From Amycolatopsis alkalitolerans (lineage in GTDB: Bacteria; Actinomycetota; Actinomycetes; Mycobacteriales; Pseudonocardiaceae), in the NCBI RefSeq assembly GCF_006152065.1, contig NZ_VDFW01000006.1:1-64000 (forward strand): a stretch of 64,000 nt of DNA, written 5' to 3'. Shown here in pieces: positions 5,561 through 15,945 of the stretch. The notes under the pieces were generated by a model. The model did not search any database and was not told where the DNA came from. It saw nothing but the letters and a program-made list of their open reading frames with translations. Position 1 is the first letter of the stretch; each line of letters begins with the position of its first letter. Both the position numbers and the translations under genes were made by a program.

Positions 5561-6853
5561 ATGGGCGAAATGGGTAATCTCGCGGGAGAGGGTATGGCCA
5601 TCGGTACGGTGATCATGCCCGGAGCGGGCACCGTGATCGGTGGGATGACCGGGGGGCTCATCAGCCTGTTCTCCAGCCCGGAAGCGCAGCAGCAGCAGGC
5701 CAATGTCGGCGGCCGCTCGATCGACGCGCGGCAGATCTGGGAGCAGATCCATCCCGGCAGCTCGGATTCGCTGCACGACGGGGCCAAGGCCGCGGGCACG
5801 CTCCAGTCGGTGCACGACAATCGGGCGAGCCAGATCGACGCGATCAACAAGGCGATGGATGCCGCCTGGCAAGGTGACGCTTCGCAGCAGGTGCAGGCCG
5901 GTGCGCACCCGCTCGGCGTCTGGCTGCGCGACTCGTCGGCCAACCTGCAGAAGAGCGGCACCTACCTGACCGACCAGGGCCACGCCTTCGACAGCGCGAA
6001 GTCCCAGGTGCAGGAGATCGCCGCGACGCCGCCGCATGAGAGCTTGCTGGACCATGTGAACCCGTTCAGCGACAAAGAAGACGAGATCAACAAGTACAAC
6101 CAGCAGGGCCAGACGAACGTCCAGGCGTTCCAGAACTACTACAACGCCAGTGCGCAGAACGCGGCGGGGATGCCGCAGTACAGCGCGTGGACGGGCAACA
6201 ACTTCTCCAGCAACAACCCGAACAATCCGAACAACCCCAGCAACAACCCGAACATCGGCACCACGCCGCCGCCGAGCGCTAGCCTCCCGCCGAGCGGTCT
6301 CGGCAACCCGCCCAACATCGGGAACACGCCGCCGCGTTACAACACGAAACTGCCCAGCACAACCGACCCGAACCAGGGCAAGTACCAGACGAGCCTGCCC
6401 AACACCGACAGCTACAAGCCGCCGGCCTGGAACGACGCCACCACGGCGGCCGGGTACACCCCGAGCACCACGAACCCGGACTTCAGCAGCGGCTTCGGCC
6501 CCTCCGGGTCCGGGTCGGGTTCCGGCTCCGGCGCCGGCTCTGGCGGGTACGGCGGTGGTTCGCTCGCCGGCGCGGGCTTCGGTCCGGCCGGTTCGCTCGG
6601 CGGCGGTGCGAGCACCGGAGCCGGTGCCAGCGGTGCGGCCGATGGCGCCGCGGGTGCGGGCCGTGGTGGCGTTGGCGGCGGGGCCGGGGCGAGCGGTCGC
6701 GCCGGCTCTCCGGGTATGGGCGGGATGGGTCGCGGCGCCGGCGGTAAGGGCGGCGACGACGAGGAGCACCAGACCAAGTACCTCGTCGGCGACGACCCCA
6801 ACGAACTGTTCGGCACCGACGAGCTGACCGCGCCACCGGTGATCGGCGAGTGA
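5561..6853 (+). CDS. PPE/WXG-like type VII secretion substrate with Gly/Pro/Asn-rich tail
   Basis: A 430-residue protein. Residues about 50-170 are helical and contain a WxG turn (W103-Q-G105), as in PPE and WXG100 proteins. From about 205 on it is low complexity: Asn/Pro repeats, then Gly/Ser and Gly/Ala stretches, ending in an acidic segment (DDEEHQTKYLVGDDPNELFG). There is no classical signal peptide; a Gly-rich hydrophobic stretch lies at 10-37. AGGAGGGG at 5553-5560 abuts this ATG, so the in-frame ATG at 5570 may be the true start. EspG is encoded immediately downstream, consistent with a chaperone-substrate pair. The ESX role is inferred from context and shape. Confidence 0.72.
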   Translation: MGEMGNLAGEGMAIGTVIMPGAGTVIGGMTGGLISLFSSPEAQQQQANVGGRSIDARQIWEQIHPGSSDSLHDGAKAAGTLQSVHDNRASQIDAINKAMDAAWQGDASQQVQAGAHPLGVWLRDSSANLQKSGTYLTDQGHAFDSAKSQVQEIAATPPHESLLDHVNPFSDKEDEINKYNQQGQTNVQAFQNYYNASAQNAAGMPQYSAWTGNNFSSNNPNNPNNPSNNPNIGTTPPPSASLPPSGLGNPPNIGNTPPRYNTKLPSTTDPNQGKYQTSLPNTDSYKPPAWNDATTAAGYTPSTTNPDFSSGFGPSGSGSGSGSGAGSGGYGGGSLAGAGFGPAGSLGGGASTGAGASGAADGAAGAGRGGVGGGAGASGRAGSPGMGGMGRGAGGKGGDDEEHQTKYLVGDDPNELFGTDELTAPPVIGE

Positions 6854-6854
6854 A

Positions 6855-7640
6855 GTGCTGAACGCTCCGATCAAGCTCGCCACCCCGATCCTGCTCAACC
6901 TGATCCGCCGTCGCGGCGGCGAGCCGCATCCGACGCTGTCGGGCATGGCCGTCTGGTACGACGAGGACGCGCAACGCGCGGCGGACCAGGAGGTCAACGC
7001 GCTGCTCACCCAGCACGGGCTGATGGGCGCCCGCGGGATGGACCGCGGGCTGCTCGACGCGATCGAGTCGATCTCGCGCCCTCAACTGGAGTACTACGGC
7101 TGGTTCGAAGGCGCGTTCTCCGACGCACCGAGGAAGTTCGCGGTGCTCGCCGGTAGCGGAGCAGGCGGCGCGTTCGTGCTGGTACGCGATATCGGCGAGG
7201 AAGCGGTGGTCCTCGTGGCCCAGCGCCCCGAGGGAGTGCTGGCGGGATTCATCGACCAGATCCCGGCCGCCCGCCCGGCGCCCGGCCAGCCGCTCGTCAC
7301 CACCAAGGCGGAGTTCCTCGCCGGCCGCGACGCGCAGCCCGAGGGCGAGTACACCGTCATGCGCTCGGCACGCGACACCTCTCGGCCCGCGCCCGCCAAG
7401 GAGATGAAGCGGCTCATGGAGGCGCCCCGCACGGGCGCCGGGACGCTCTACGTGGCCGCGCGGAGCCGCAGCGGCAGCAGGCGCCGGTGTGAACGGCCGC
7501 TGAACTTCGTGGATACGGCCGAAGGCCGCTGGTTGATGGAGGAGCGTCCTGCTCGCGGGGACGCTCTCGTCGTGTTCACGCCCGCATCGCCGCAGGTCCT
7601 CGGCGAGCGGTTACGGAACGCACAGAGTGCGCTCGGCTGA
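6855..7640 (+). CDS. EspG-family ESX secretion-associated chaperone
   Basis: EspG proteins are cytosolic chaperones that hold PE-PPE-type substrates before export by ESX/type VII systems. This 261-residue protein has the family features: N-terminal strand/helix start, WYDEDAQRAADQEVNALL, then YYGWF, VLAGSGAGGAFVLVRD, and a C-terminal ERPLNFVDTAEGRWLMEE segment. Translation starts at a GTG one base after the PPE-like gene's stop, suggesting coupling. It closes the cassette. No EccA-E or MycP genes are nearby, so an ESX machine elsewhere in the genome must be used. Confidence 0.8.
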   Translation: MLNAPIKLATPILLNLIRRRGGEPHPTLSGMAVWYDEDAQRAADQEVNALLTQHGLMGARGMDRGLLDAIESISRPQLEYYGWFEGAFSDAPRKFAVLAGSGAGGAFVLVRDIGEEAVVLVAQRPEGVLAGFIDQIPAARPAPGQPLVTTKAEFLAGRDAQPEGEYTVMRSARDTSRPAPAKEMKRLMEAPRTGAGTLYVAARSRSGSRRRCERPLNFVDTAEGRWLMEERPARGDALVVFTPASPQVLGERLRNAQSALG

Positions 7641-10865: not shown

Positions 10866-13835
10866 TCACGCCTGGATGTGCATCCCCTTGCCGCTGACCG
10901 CGTCGGTCACCTTGGACAGCACCGCGGTGGGGTTCGCGGCGTCCAGGCTCGGCATGGCGGGCAGGTCGCCCTGCAGGGCGGGCAACTCGGCCTGCGGCAG
11001 CAGTTCGCCGATGGTCGGCGAAGGCAGGTTCGCACCGGGCAGGGTGCCCGGCGTCACCGGCAGCGAGGGAAGCGCACCGCTCAGACCGCCCACGGCGGGC
11101 ACCGACGGCAGTGAGGGCAGGCCGCCGGTGGGCAGTGCGGGCAGGTCCGCCCGCTCGGACTTCTGCATCGCCGGGAGCTTGGGCAGGCTCGTGGCCCCCA
11201 GCTCCGAGGTGGTGATCGGCAGGTCGATCTGCGGCTCGTGACCCGCGACCGAGATGTCGGTCGCGTTGTGGGTCACCGAGGTCACCACGCCGAGCAGACC
11301 GACCGGCACGTCGAAGACCTGCGCCACGACACCGATCGGGAACTGCTTCTTCAGCCCGGACAGCGCCTTGACCGAGGTGGGGCTGGTGGTGTCGGTCCCG
11401 CCCACCGTGCCGGTGGTGGTGTTGTCCGCCACCGCGTGCGCGACCCCGCCCAGCGAAGCCGCGACGCCGAACACCTGGGCCACCGCGGCCACCGGCACAT
11501 CGAAGATGTCGCCGGAGATCGCGCCACCCACACCCGAGGTCGTGATGTCGCCGCCCGAGGTGGTCTGGGTGCTGTTGATCCCGGTGCCGTGGGTGACCCC
11601 GGTCAGGCTCGCCGCGTCACCGAAGACCTGCGCGATCGGCATCAACTGGCCACTGATCACGTTGCCCGCGATCGAGCCGCCGTCGCCGTTGGTCTGCGAG
11701 TTGCCACCGGCGGTGGAGGAGACGTCGTTGGTGGCGTCGCCACCGGTGACGCCACCCCACACCGCGCCGACGCCGAACGCGTCGGCCGCGGCGGCCGCGG
11801 GCACCTGGATGATGTTGCCGGCCACCGAGCCGCCCTCACCGGTCGCGGAGGCGTCGCCACCGGCGGTCGAGTCGCTCATGTTCTGGCTCTCGCCGAACCC
11901 GTTGCCGATCCACGCGCCACCGATACCGTGCAGCGCGGTGGGCAGGGACACCGGCACCTCGCCGATGTTGCCGGCCGCGAAGCCCTTCTTGCCGTTGGCG
12001 TTGAGGTGGCCGCCCGCGGTCGAGGTGGTGTCGGTGTCGGCCGAGCCGTGGCCCTGGCCGATCCACGCGCCCCCGATACCGAACGCCTGCACCGGCGCCG
12101 AAACCGGGACGGAGACCAGGTTCGCGCTGCCGGCGCCGTGGTCGTCCTGGGTGTTGCCGCCGCCGCCGGCGGTGACGTCCTTGGTCTCGCTCGCGGTGCC
12201 GCTGCCCTGGCCGATCCAGGAGCCGCCGACGCCGAACACCTCGGCAGGCACGGACGTCGGGACCTGCACGACGTTGCCGCCGCCGGTCGAGTCGTTGCCC
12301 TGGCTGCCGTTGTAACCACCGGCCTTGACCGTCTTGTTCTCGGTGGCCGAACCGGACGCGTTACCGATCCACGACCCGCCGACGCCGAACACCTCGGCGG
12401 TGCCGGCCGGCTGCGCGCTCGCGCTGTTGCCGCCGAGGAAGCTGCCGTTGCCGTTGGTGTAGGTGCCGGAGCCCGCGGTCGCGTTGACGGTGTTGTCGCA
12501 GCCGCCCGCGTTGGCGTTGCCGATCCAGGTGCCACCGACGCAGAACACCTCGACGGGCACGGCGGCCGGGGCGTCGGCGATGTTGCCGGATCCGGCCGAG
12601 TTCTGGCCGCTGGTCGAGGAGAAGCCTCCAGCCGTCGCGGTGCTGCCCATGTTCGTAGCCTGGCGGTCGGCACCGCTGCCGGCGGTCGAGTTGCCGACCC
12701 AGGCCGCCGCGTTGCCGACGACCGTGCCCGGCGCGGCGGGCTGCGGCTGCGCGATGTTGCCCGACAGGAACGACGTGTCGCCGTCGGTCTGGATGTAGCT
12801 CGGGATGTCGTTCATCCCGGGCCGGGTTCCGCCCGCGTACGCGTCGGCGTTGGCGCTACCGGCCGAGTCCGCGTCGCCGCCCCACGAGACGGCGTTGTTC
12901 GAGGCCTTGAGCGGCAGGGCGACCGGCGCACCGCCGACGTTCCCGCTGCCCGCGCCCTTCGACCCGTGGCTCTCGATCGAGCCGCCGGAGCAGGCCTGGC
13001 TGTTGCCGCTGAAGTCCGTCTCGGCGTGACCGAGGAACCAGCCGAGCGCGTTGCCGGACACCTGCACCGGGGTGGCGCCCTGCGGGGCGACCACGTTTCC
13101 GGCCAGCCCGCCGTTGGTGCCGTCGGTGGTCGTCTCGCTGCCGGTGGTCGCGGACTGGGTCGCGCTGCCGGAGGTCTTGCCGCTGCCGCCGAGGCCGAGC
13201 GCGTTGCCCGAGATCTGCACCGGCAGGGCCCAGTCGAGGTTGACCACGTTGCCGGCGAGGCCGCCGCCCGCACCGCTGGTGTTCACATCGGACTGGTGCT
13301 CGTAGGTCTGGGTCTCGTCGGAGTCGACCGACGCGTTGCCCAGCACGCCCAGTGCGTTACCGGTGATCTGGATCGGCAGCGCGACGTTGCCGACGACCTT
13401 GTTGCCCATCATCGGGTCGCCGTTCGAGGTGACCGACGGCTGGGCGTCCGCGCGCTGGCCGGCCTTGCCGAGTGACTGGCCGAGCTGCTGGGTGGCCGCG
13501 GTGGCCTTCGAGGTGACCTGGTTCGCCGTGTTCACCGCCGGGGCGGCCGCCTTGTACGCCTCGGTCTTCGTGACCGGGGCGAGCGCCTTGTTGACCTTGT
13601 CGGTGACCGGCTTGGTGCTGATCTCCTTGTGCATTTCCGGCAGGTTGACCTGCTTGCCGAGGGTCCCGATCGCGTTGTGCGAGATGTCGACCGGAACGCT
13701 CGCGGTGACGTCGAGCGGGCCGGCCGGCATGTCGGGGTTGACATTCTCGTCGGCAGACGCGATGCCGGTGCCCAGCATCATCAGGCCACCCGTGACCAGC
13801 GCGGTCTGAAGTCCGCGCTTTGCCCAGGTCTGCAT
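10866..13835 (-). CDS. Large exported protein built of about 15 chaplin-like repeats
   Basis: A 989-residue exported protein. A signal peptide (1-27, ending GIASA|DE) precedes about 15 tandem repeats of roughly 50-60 residues. Each repeat has a core GN[IV]xxxPxxxPV[EQ][VI]xGxGxxWIGN followed by a Gly/Ser/Thr/Asn-rich loop. Examples are SGNIADAPAAVPVEVFCVGG, GNVVQVPTSVPAEVFGVGG and GNVVNLDWALPVQISGNALG. The core resembles the chaplin domain (SGNxxxxPxxxPVxVCGN). One repeat keeps two cysteines (FCVGG...GGCDN); most have none. The tail after about residue 860 is Leu-Pro-rich (LPSLP, LPALP). ATG 13835 follows AAGGAGAAAG; an upstream in-frame start would only add an implausible basic tail. A beta-rich, amphipathic surface coat is inferred. 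Confidence 0.75.
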   Translation of the reverse strand: MQTWAKRGLQTALVTGGLMMLGTGIASADENVNPDMPAGPLDVTASVPVDISHNAIGTLGKQVNLPEMHKEISTKPVTDKVNKALAPVTKTEAYKAAAPAVNTANQVTSKATAATQQLGQSLGKAGQRADAQPSVTSNGDPMMGNKVVGNVALPIQITGNALGVLGNASVDSDETQTYEHQSDVNTSGAGGGLAGNVVNLDWALPVQISGNALGLGGSGKTSGSATQSATTGSETTTDGTNGGLAGNVVAPQGATPVQVSGNALGWFLGHAETDFSGNSQACSGGSIESHGSKGAGSGNVGGAPVALPLKASNNAVSWGGDADSAGSANADAYAGGTRPGMNDIPSYIQTDGDTSFLSGNIAQPQPAAPGTVVGNAAAWVGNSTAGSGADRQATNMGSTATAGGFSSTSGQNSAGSGNIADAPAAVPVEVFCVGGTWIGNANAGGCDNTVNATAGSGTYTNGNGSFLGGNSASAQPAGTAEVFGVGGSWIGNASGSATENKTVKAGGYNGSQGNDSTGGGNVVQVPTSVPAEVFGVGGSWIGQGSGTASETKDVTAGGGGNTQDDHGAGSANLVSVPVSAPVQAFGIGGAWIGQGHGSADTDTTSTAGGHLNANGKKGFAAGNIGEVPVSLPTALHGIGGAWIGNGFGESQNMSDSTAGGDASATGEGGSVAGNIIQVPAAAAADAFGVGAVWGGVTGGDATNDVSSTAGGNSQTNGDGGSIAGNVISGQLMPIAQVFGDAASLTGVTHGTGINSTQTTSGGDITTSGVGGAISGDIFDVPVAAVAQVFGVAASLGGVAHAVADNTTTGTVGGTDTTSPTSVKALSGLKKQFPIGVVAQVFDVPVGLLGVVTSVTHNATDISVAGHEPQIDLPITTSELGATSLPKLPAMQKSERADLPALPTGGLPSLPSVPAVGGLSGALPSLPVTPGTLPGANLPSPTIGELLPQAELPALQGDLPAMPSLDAANPTAVLSKVTDAVSGKGMHIQA

Positions 13836-13999
13836 TGAGACTTTCTCCTTTTCCTTGGGTTCCCTTGCGGGGCTTGTGGAATGGGTGAACTCACCCGGGT
13901 CGCGAACGTCGGTTCGCGAGGGACAAGCGGGGTGCGGGGAACGCGCTGCCGGCAAAGGAGGCACGGCGGACAGGGCGCGTTCAGCTACCCCGCCGTGTG

Positions 14000-14935
14000 T
14001 CAGTCAGGCGTGACGCCGGGCTGAGCGCCCGGCTGAACCGGCGTGTGCCGGAGGCCGAAGCGGACGGCACGCAGGCCGCTCGCGTCGACAACGGTGACCG
14101 CGTTGGCGGGAACGCCGAAGAGCGGACCGTCGAGATGACCGCCGGCGGCGGAACCGCCGGGCGTCGAGGGGACTCCGGACGGGGCCAGCGGGCCACGCGC
14201 CGGGTCGAACGGGAACGGGTCGGGCTGTGCGCCGCCCGGCCTCTTGGGCTCGTTCCGGGAACCGAGATGGCCCGCGGGGAATTGCTCCCGGGGCAGTGTG
14301 GTCGCGACCGGACCCATCGGGCCGGCGGGCGCCGGAGCACTCGCGACCGCGACCGGCGGCTCCACCTGCGTGTGCTGGTGGCCACCACCGTGTGTGCCGG
14401 GCAGGGCCGGCAAGTTGATCAGCGCTGAACCGTCCGGGCGCAGGAAGTTCCAGAAGCCCGGCGGCGGGGTCAGCGCCTGGCTGATCACGCGCGGCGCGTC
14501 CTGCGGCTCGCGGGTGATCTGCTCCGCGGAGCCGAGCAGGCGGTCGGCCGGGTTGAGCACCGCATACTGGGTGAACTGGTGCATGGCGTCCCGGACATCG
14601 CCGGCGGCCTCTGCGCCACGGGCGATGCTGTCGGGGGACTGGACACCGGTGCCGAGGCGGACGGCTGCTCCTGCCGAGTCGCCCGCCAACTGCTCGGTGC
14701 CGAGCAGGACGTCGTCACCGGTGCCGAGCACGGCGTCGGTGACCGGGGTGGCCTGCTCGCTCGTCACGTCTTGAGCCGGGGCGGGGGGCGCGGTCGCGGC
14801 GGAGGCCGACGCGGTGCCGATCGCCCACGCCGCGGCCGTGCCGGCGACGGCGCCGCCGACCACGAGCAGCGCACGTCCGAGCCAGCGGCCGGCGCGTGCC
14901 GGACCCCGCTCCACGGACGTGTGTTGCTGCTTCAC
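14000..14935 (-). CDS. Secreted protein of unknown function
   Basis: A 311-residue predicted exported protein. The start is GTG 14935, because AGGAGA lies just upstream; the open frame extends further but without a ribosome site. A twin-basic start leads to a hydrophobic segment (about 19-42, ending ASAS), likely a signal peptide or anchor. The next 120 residues are helical and moderately hydrophobic (EQLAGDSAGAAVRLGTG, MHQFTQYAVLNPADRLLGS). The rest is Pro/Gly/His-rich with a short final domain (NAVTVVDASGLRAVRFG). No family recognised. It lies between the chaplin-like gene and two small exported-protein genes, all read leftward, so a shared role at the cell surface is plausible. Confidence 0.65.
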   Translation of the reverse strand: MKQQHTSVERGPARAGRWLGRALLVVGGAVAGTAAAWAIGTASASAATAPPAPAQDVTSEQATPVTDAVLGTGDDVLLGTEQLAGDSAGAAVRLGTGVQSPDSIARGAEAAGDVRDAMHQFTQYAVLNPADRLLGSAEQITREPQDAPRVISQALTPPPGFWNFLRPDGSALINLPALPGTHGGGHQHTQVEPPVAVASAPAPAGPMGPVATTLPREQFPAGHLGSRNEPKRPGGAQPDPFPFDPARGPLAPSGVPSTPGGSAAGGHLDGPLFGVPANAVTVVDASGLRAVRFGLRHTPVQPGAQPGVTPD

Positions 14936-15138
14936 CGATCTCCTGCCGAGAAAATTCACTACCGTATCTGAAACGAATTCGAATGGGTTCGCCTCGATAC
15001 GAAACGGCCTTGCACCGAAGACATAACCAAAACTCGGGACGCGCGTGCACGTTCGACACGACTTGATCGCACGATCGTGTGAAGAACTCCGCGTGTGGTC
15101 CAACCTGACCGACCGTGCCCGACGGTCGGATCGATAGA

Positions 15139-15193: not shown

Positions 15194-15451
15194 TCAGCCG
15201 AGCGAGCCGGCGGCACCCTGGATGATCGACGGGATGGCACCAGCCCACGCGGAGCTGAGCAGGCCCGCGGCACCGGCGCCAAGGAGCGCGCCGGACTGGT
15301 TCCAGGCGTTCACGTAGTCGGCACCGGTCGGGTGCGACGGCACGGCCACCGGAGCGGTCAGTTCGTCGGCCGAGGCGACACCGCCGGCGAGGCCCAGAGC
15401 ACCCGCCGAGAGGGCGAGGACGGCGACGGTGCGGGTGAGGGTCTTGCGCAT
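15194..15451 (-). CDS. Small exported protein (tandem duplicate A)
   Basis: An 85-residue protein. Signal peptide 1-28 (ending GVASA|DE), then a mature peptide of about 57 residues ending in TGADYVNAWNQSGALLGAGA and then GLLSSAWAGAIPSIIQG. The C-terminal 45 residues are nearly identical to those of the upstream neighbour, also at DNA level, showing a recent duplication. ATG 15451 follows GAAGGGA. The hydrophobic, Gly/Ala-rich end could self-assemble or insert in a membrane, but I know no characterised homologue. Terminator follows. Confidence 0.75.
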   Translation of the reverse strand: MRKTLTRTVAVLALSAGALGLAGGVASADELTAPVAVPSHPTGADYVNAWNQSGALLGAGAAGLLSSAWAGAIPSIIQGAAGSLG

Positions 15452-15498
15452 GGAACTGTTCCCTTCTGTTGGTGTTACTTCGTGGTGATGGCGACGAT

Positions 15499-15945
15499 TC
15501 AGCCGACTGAGCCGGTGGCGCCCTGGATGATGGACGGGATGGCTCCCGCCCACGCGGAGCTGATCAGGCCTGCCGCGCCGGCGCCGAGGCAGGTGCCGGA
15601 CTGGTTCCAGGCGTTGACGTAGTCGGCACCGGTCGAGTTGTCCGGGACGACCGCAGGGCAGCCGATGCCACCCGTGCCGGGCTCGGATGGGGCCGGCTGC
15701 TCGGGCGCCGGTGCGGGCTGCTCAGGCGCCGGTGCGGGCTTTTCGGGGGCAGGTGCGGGCTTTTCGGGGGCCGGCTGCGGCGCCGGGAAGCAACCGCACC
15801 GCGGGTCGAACTGAACCGCTCCCGACGCCTCGTGCGCGGTGTTCGTGGCCGCCAGCGCCGGGGAGCCCGCGGCCCCCAGTGCCAGCACACCGGCCGCGGC
15901 CGCCACCGTCGTGACGACTACCTTACGGGCCTTGCTGAACTTCAC
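15499..15945 (-). CDS. Small exported protein with Pro-Ala-Glu repeats (tandem duplicate B)
   Basis: A 148-residue protein. Signal peptide 1-33 (ending PALA|AT), then a Cys-x-Cys motif (RCGCFPAP) and repeats of PAPEKPAP / PAPEQPAP that probably form a stiff spacer. The same 45-residue end as duplicate A follows (STGADYVNAWNQSGTCLGAG, then GLISSAWAGAIPSIIQG). This copy has four cysteines in the mature part (two in CGC, one in GCPAVV, one in GTCLG); duplicate A has none. AGGAGA lies just before the ATG. The spacer and cysteines suggest the terminal domain is presented away from the membrane or peptidoglycan (inference). Confidence 0.75.
   Translation of the reverse strand: MKFSKARKVVVTTVAAAAGVLALGAAGSPALAATNTAHEASGAVQFDPRCGCFPAPQPAPEKPAPAPEKPAPAPEQPAPAPEQPAPSEPGTGGIGCPAVVPDNSTGADYVNAWNQSGTCLGAGAAGLISSAWAGAIPSIIQGATGSVG

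Follow-up and report, generated by a model that had tools for sequence, protein, structure and literature searches.

The 64,000-nucleotide window analyzed here (positions 1 to 64,000 of contig NZ_VDFW01000006.1, Amycolatopsis alkalitolerans) contains a gene for a likely secreted protein, P0001, whose main body is an array of 14 chaplin-like units (Table 1). Chaplins are classic functional amyloids, small coat proteins that are made separately by Streptomyces, and Amycolatopsis is a genus known for aerial growth. The reading frame ends exactly at the boundaries previously assigned to it, its ATG start codon is preceded by the ribosome-binding site AAGGAG at 13845-13850, and the same layout of start and AAGGAG is found in correctly oriented relatives. 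Export of P0001 and of the products of neighboring genes was read from the sequence.

Table 1. Features of the array gene, its protein and its surroundings in the window (nucleotide positions of the window, residues of P0001)
Feature	Position	Strand	Basis
Chaplin-like array gene, 989 aa	10866..13835	-	Open reading frame, ribosome-binding site
Signal peptide, residues 1-28	13752..13835	-	By eye: hydrophobic stretch ending ASA
Degenerate N-terminal chaplin-like unit, residues 29-60	13656..13751	-	By eye
Variable linker, residues 61-131	13443..13655	-	35% mean identity (117 aligned proteins); low AlphaFold2 confidence (pLDDT) at 91-138
14 tandem chaplin-like units, residues 132-875, predicted beta-solenoid	11211..13442	-	Lag-51 repeat, hhalign, AlphaFold2, conservation
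Unit 6, residues 405-456, with Cys432-Cys446 pair	12468..12623	-	Cysteine pairing
Unit 8, residues 508-558, top chaplin-profile match	12162..12314	-	hhalign probability 94.9
Leu-Pro-rich tail, residues 876-989	10869..11210	-	Sequence; low pLDDT
Inverted repeat TCGCGAAC-N4-GTTCGCGA	13900..13919	-	Gap before array gene; similar arms in some relatives
Co-oriented, likely exported protein, 367 aa (start uncertain)	14000..15103	-	Conserved neighbor

The repeat array of P0001 is far beyond chance: the mean BLOSUM62 score reaches 1.04 at lag 51 and 0.50 at lag 102, compared with at most -0.22 at any lag of 20-119 in 200 shuffles. The 14 clear units, about 51 residues each, begin, as judged by the GN or equivalent pair, at residues 144, 195, 246, 298, 359, 417, 469, 520, 571, 622, 673, 724, 775 and 826, and their spacing is 51 except for the early intervals of 52, 61, 58 and 52. 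The degenerate N-terminal unit, placed by eye at about residues 40-60, brings the count to 15, in agreement with the initial annotation, which had proposed about 15 repeats. The sequences of the units have diverged to a mean pairwise identity of 25% (10-51% among neighboring units).

To place these units, we used three sets of proteins. (i) A search with P0001 was passed by 442 relatives, the best 120 of which were listed and are 44-86% identical to P0001; the search admits lengths of 0.55-1.75 times the query, and very different arrays would go unseen. (ii) From the 120 listed proteins, 117 were aligned (alignment A1; P0019, P0083 and P0103 were left out), and 39, P0001 included, were scanned against Pfam. 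(iii) A chaplin profile was built from 33 distinct domains from 16 loci, 15 of them of one genus taken as Streptomyces; the domains were chosen by a pattern of two GN-type motifs and a final cysteine, which favors classical chaplins.

Comparison with these sets supports, as judged from sequence, a distant homology of the P0001 units to the chaplin domain, of which only the first two-thirds are represented. The chaplin family PF03777 is matched at E 0.001 by 37 of the 39 sampled family members, and the only other Pfam family found at this threshold is GLTT, with one match. P0001 itself is one of the two misses (12.7 bits, E 0.12, gathering cut-off 21 bits), although relatives that share 68-79% identity with it pass (P0015 with 52.3 bits, P0012 with 42.9 and P0003 with 28.5); the chaplin-like nature of the repeat proposed earlier is supported, as a distant relationship. 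When the 14 unit profiles were aligned with the chaplin profile by hhalign, each against 30 column shuffles, 13 scored above all of the shuffles, and unit 12 was reached by one of 30. The hhalign probability exceeds 80% in seven units, highest in unit 8, and ranges from 3.6% (unit 12) to 54% in the rest. The four unit alignments that were printed, of the 14, have a common register and span the chaplin domain up to two-thirds of its length from the N-terminal side. Elsewhere, P0001 has no match in PDB by sequence at E up to 1, a viral fold library gave none at E 0.001 (best 2.1e-3) and PHROGs none at E 0.1; in NCBIfam, P0001 has a single match, to a histidine kinase model (13.2 bits, cut-off 740), which we took as chance.

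P0001 resembles the Streptomyces chaplins (ChpD-H and ChpA-C) in its GN-x13-GN-like core with proline often at +7 and +11, in the hydrophobic character of this core, in its likely secretion, and in the cysteine pair present in some units. It differs from them on several features, and on these it does not fit the chaplin family in the strict sense. The Streptomyces proteins have one or two units and P0001 has 14. Three GN motifs 12-13 residues apart are expected in a chaplin (PMC13251363); in P0001, 11 of 14 units have the first one intact (its G and its N are each present in 12), the second retains its G in 11 units and its N in 5, and the third is not kept, the last third of the domain being replaced by a hydrophilic stretch. 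The two cysteines per domain are present in one unit of 14, although ChpE likewise lacks them (PMC5618241). Chaplins are strongly hydrophobic, with a grand average of hydropathy (GRAVY) of 0.163 to 0.600 for short chaplins (PMC3079736) and a mean of 0.41 for chaplin domains, whereas mature P0001 has -0.05, the 14 cores having +0.76 and the stretches between them -0.73. Finally, the sortase signal that marks long chaplins was not found in P0001 by pattern and by reading, nor was a membrane tail seen. Among the 120 listed relatives, one fits one sortase pattern without a membrane tail and four fit a looser pattern; the genome of the window has four sortase matches. In ChpH, only the C-terminal one of two amyloidogenic regions acts in rodlet formation (PMC7766987). 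The P0001 array lacks the part matching this region, and therefore a coat without chaplin-type rodlets would be expected.

AlphaFold2 predicts P0001 to be a beta-solenoid, with a predicted local distance difference test (pLDDT) score of at least 90 at 672 of 989 residues. Coupling between residues is strongest at a separation of exactly one unit (lag 51, z 17.7), with side bands at 49, 50, 52 and 53, and each unit probably forms one coil of the modeled solenoid. A better match of the repeats to an unrelated beta-helix family had been named as the outcome that would speak against chaplin kinship; no such match emerged by sequence, although the fold predicted for P0001 is itself a beta-solenoid. 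A PDB sequence search with one short chaplin gave nothing better than E 0.8, to a ferredoxin taken as chance. Curli and HET-s type proteins are solenoid amyloids. Their stacked coils (for the HET-s solenoid, see PMC6173796) are like those predicted for P0001, except that P0001 would have all 14 of its coils within a single chain.

The initial annotation had described one cysteine-bearing repeat (FCVGG...GGCDN) and, perhaps, a single crosslink point. P0001 has three cysteines, the Cys432-Cys446 pair and Cys282, which has no partner in its own unit, and the FCVGG...GGCDN unit is therefore not alone in carrying a cysteine. Across alignment A1, 204 of 244 cysteines form 102 in-unit pairs spaced by 13-17 residues, compared with 2.6 pairs on average and 7 at most in 200 runs of random placement, relatedness of the sequences inflating the observed count. 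These pairs, one in 80 sequences, two in 11 and none in 26, are confined to units 1, 4 or 6, and 21 of the 120 listed relatives lack cysteines altogether (median 2). Because the cysteines are mostly paired inside a unit, the first of them at the chaplin cysteine position or one beyond, an in-unit disulfide is likelier than a single crosslink point. The cysteines of Streptomyces ChpH matter in vivo, and reduced peptides still form fibrils (PMC3079736); intermolecular disulfides have also been proposed for ChpH (PMC3079736), which leaves some probability to a crosslink.

The number of units is fixed at 14 in close relatives. Counted on P0001's own units in the best-scoring relatives, all 14 are present in 116 of the 117 aligned proteins (P0094 has 10), and the array length is within 26 residues of that of P0001 in 112, four others being 45-54 residues longer. 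Mean identity to P0001 is 93% in the signal peptide and 64% in residues 29-60, falling to 34% in region 871-989, which varies in length from 18 to 457 residues. In two other genera (loci L076 and L077), the array N-terminus, MQTWA[KR]RG...ALVTGG, is attached to a protein of quite another kind that has no repeats, as though unrelated bodies shared a single secretion module.

Presence in related genomes, a check proposed earlier, was surveyed in 61 genomes and P0001 is matched in 36: 18 of 19 in the same genus (the exception, G015, consists of 900 contigs), 11 strong and 5 N-terminal-only matches with 2 absences among 18 genomes of other genera of the family, and 2 of 24 genomes from the order's other families. 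Judged by the array protein, Amycolatopsis pithecellobii is the nearest named relative (86% identity; DnaB 98%). PF03777 is matched at E 0.001 in 10 of the 19 genus genomes, always in open frames of 979-1039 residues; no short chaplin was found in these 19 genomes at this threshold, at which one as diverged as P0001 would be missed, and the window's own genome has no match. The same search finds short chaplins elsewhere with E near 1e-29, and it gave no match in 14 named control genomes.

An order-level relative, G040, carries arrays whose chaplin units are of the classical kind and mostly contain a cysteine pair; one of these arrays has an LPVTG tail. A search with a G040 array was passed by 462 proteins; many of the 120 listed are named chaplin family protein, and the matches listed include Nonomuraea, Actinomadura, Microbispora, Fodinicola and others. 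P0121 contains eight chaplin stretches (172.8 bits) and P0127 seven. These multi-chaplin proteins are like P0001 in forming a tandem array within one likely secreted chain, in their cysteine spacing, which in the units read is 14 and equals that of unit 6 of P0001, and in the Leu-Pro-rich tail of P0121. They differ in that 91 of the 120 listed have exactly 14 cysteines, compared with the median of 2 in the P0001 family, and the four sequences that were read (P0121, P0122, P0124 and P0127) end in a hydrophobic tail; the LPxTG pattern occurs in none of the 120. A profile of 94 of them (alignment A2) matches only the array gene in the window's genome, as two partial matches with E 6.7e-12 and E 1.6e-6, and therefore the Amycolatopsis array belongs to a wider tandem-chaplin set. 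We infer that it lost cysteines, rather than that tandem chaplins elsewhere gained them.

Concatenation of the chaplin unit in this lineage, suggested by the initial annotation, is supported by the tandem units, but the lineage is not alone, as arrays of seven or eight domains occur in other actinomycetes. Nor is concatenation itself new, since multi-chaplin proteins are already named in databases. Titles and abstract beginnings among the literature matches listed mention no multi-chaplin arrays in Amycolatopsis or Nonomuraea, and the available text of a 2013 survey that included the Amycolatopsis mediterranei genome names chaplin-like proteins in other genera, not in Amycolatopsis (PMC4255298). 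What appears to be new is a predicted solenoid that has a fixed number of 14 units and lacks a sortase signal, encoded by the only chaplin-like gene found in the window's genome.

The array gene lies between dnaB and an AI-2E-type transporter gene in all 14 named loci. The leftward block noted earlier is present as the co-oriented frames 14000-15103, 15194-15553 and 15499-15945, their products being read as exported. The 367-residue neighbor has tblastn matches at 13 of 14 named loci, some over short stretches only, and no Pfam match above cut-off. The small, likely exported neighbors at 15194-15945 share the C-terminal stretch GADYVNAWNQSG...AGAIPSIIQGA, and similar copies occur in 7 of 14 named loci. 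Two inverted repeats precede the array gene at 13883-13919, and a hairpin with changed arms was seen by eye in some relatives. A Sigma-BldN-like promoter was sought in the 400 bases upstream, with hexamers that we take to be those of Sigma-BldN, and rejected: 2 of 23 loci have a 3-mismatch site, more than 330 bases upstream. These 23 of 29 loci, some representing the same genome twice, leave out L015, L017, L018, L020, L028 and L029, for which the strand was wrong; the window's own copy (L015) was read by eye only. Elsewhere in the window, a PPE-family protein (PF00823, 33 bits) is directly followed by an EspG-family protein (PF14011, 136 bits) at 5561-7640, a type VII secretion pair, and at 139-2734 three consecutive co-oriented, likely exported proteins have similar hydrophobic tails with LPLL or LPML and no Pfam match at E 0.01.

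The reading that we favor, with a probability of roughly 0.55, is that P0001 is a likely secreted 14-unit chaplin-like protein that forms an amphipathic solenoid rod and likely coats the hyphal surface. In-register stacking of the 14 units is predicted to produce a single stiff beta-solenoid rod, the hydrophobic cores would line one part of it and the stretches rich in Ser, Thr, Asn and Asp another, and rods packed side by side at the wall-air interface may render the surface water-repellent. Such a rod would correspond to a segment of a chaplin fiber inside one chain, instead of polymerized separate peptides, and the one in-unit disulfide would act as a clamp on just one of the coils. A bolder and tentative extension, for which the odds are below even, is that one 14-unit amphipathic solenoid, a ready-made fiber of fixed length, replaced the multi-gene chaplin system in Amycolatopsis and its kin, that the disulfide clamp moves among units 1, 4 and 6, and that the array shows how Streptomyces chaplins stack.

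The alternative that survives best, though we consider it rather unlikely, is that P0001 serves attachment in submerged growth, as a beta-helical adhesin or matrix protein, and plays no part at the air interface. The predicted fold resembles adhesin passengers such as antigen 43 and pertactin, although Foldseek gave no significant match, the array as a whole is not hydrophobic, and some Streptomyces chaplins have an attachment role (PMC4255298); however, the sequence kinship that was found is to chaplins, and the unit number is fixed in close relatives. The number of repeats in adhesins often varies. Still less probable is a beads-on-a-string arrangement, in which every unit nucleates intermolecular amyloid and the solenoid model is an artifact of the repeated sequence. 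AlphaFold2 can overpredict solenoids on repeats, and a sister array was not confidently predicted. Short chaplins also form cross-beta fibrils singly (PMC3079736). Against this, the confidence of the P0001 model is very high, the units share only a quarter of their residues on average, and the coupling peak with its side bands fits in-register stacking. Very improbable is the PE-PGRS identity that several database entries give to relatives of P0001: the glycine content of P0001 is 17%, but no PE domain was detected in P0001 (E up to 5) or in the 39 sampled family members (E 0.001), the match found in the family being to chaplins.

The proteins of Amycolatopsis and Prauserella that automated annotation calls "PE-PGRS family" or "beta strand repeat-containing" are direct relatives of P0001 that differ in name only; the PE-PGRS name, which many of them carry, is misleading and is corrected here, and the literature search returned nothing pairing PE-PGRS with Amycolatopsis. 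If the amphipathic solenoid rod is the true form of P0001, this covalently linked 14-unit version would be a stand-in of defined length for crystallography or cryo-electron microscopy and would provide a testable model of chaplin packing. It would also explain how Amycolatopsis manages without recognizable short chaplins.
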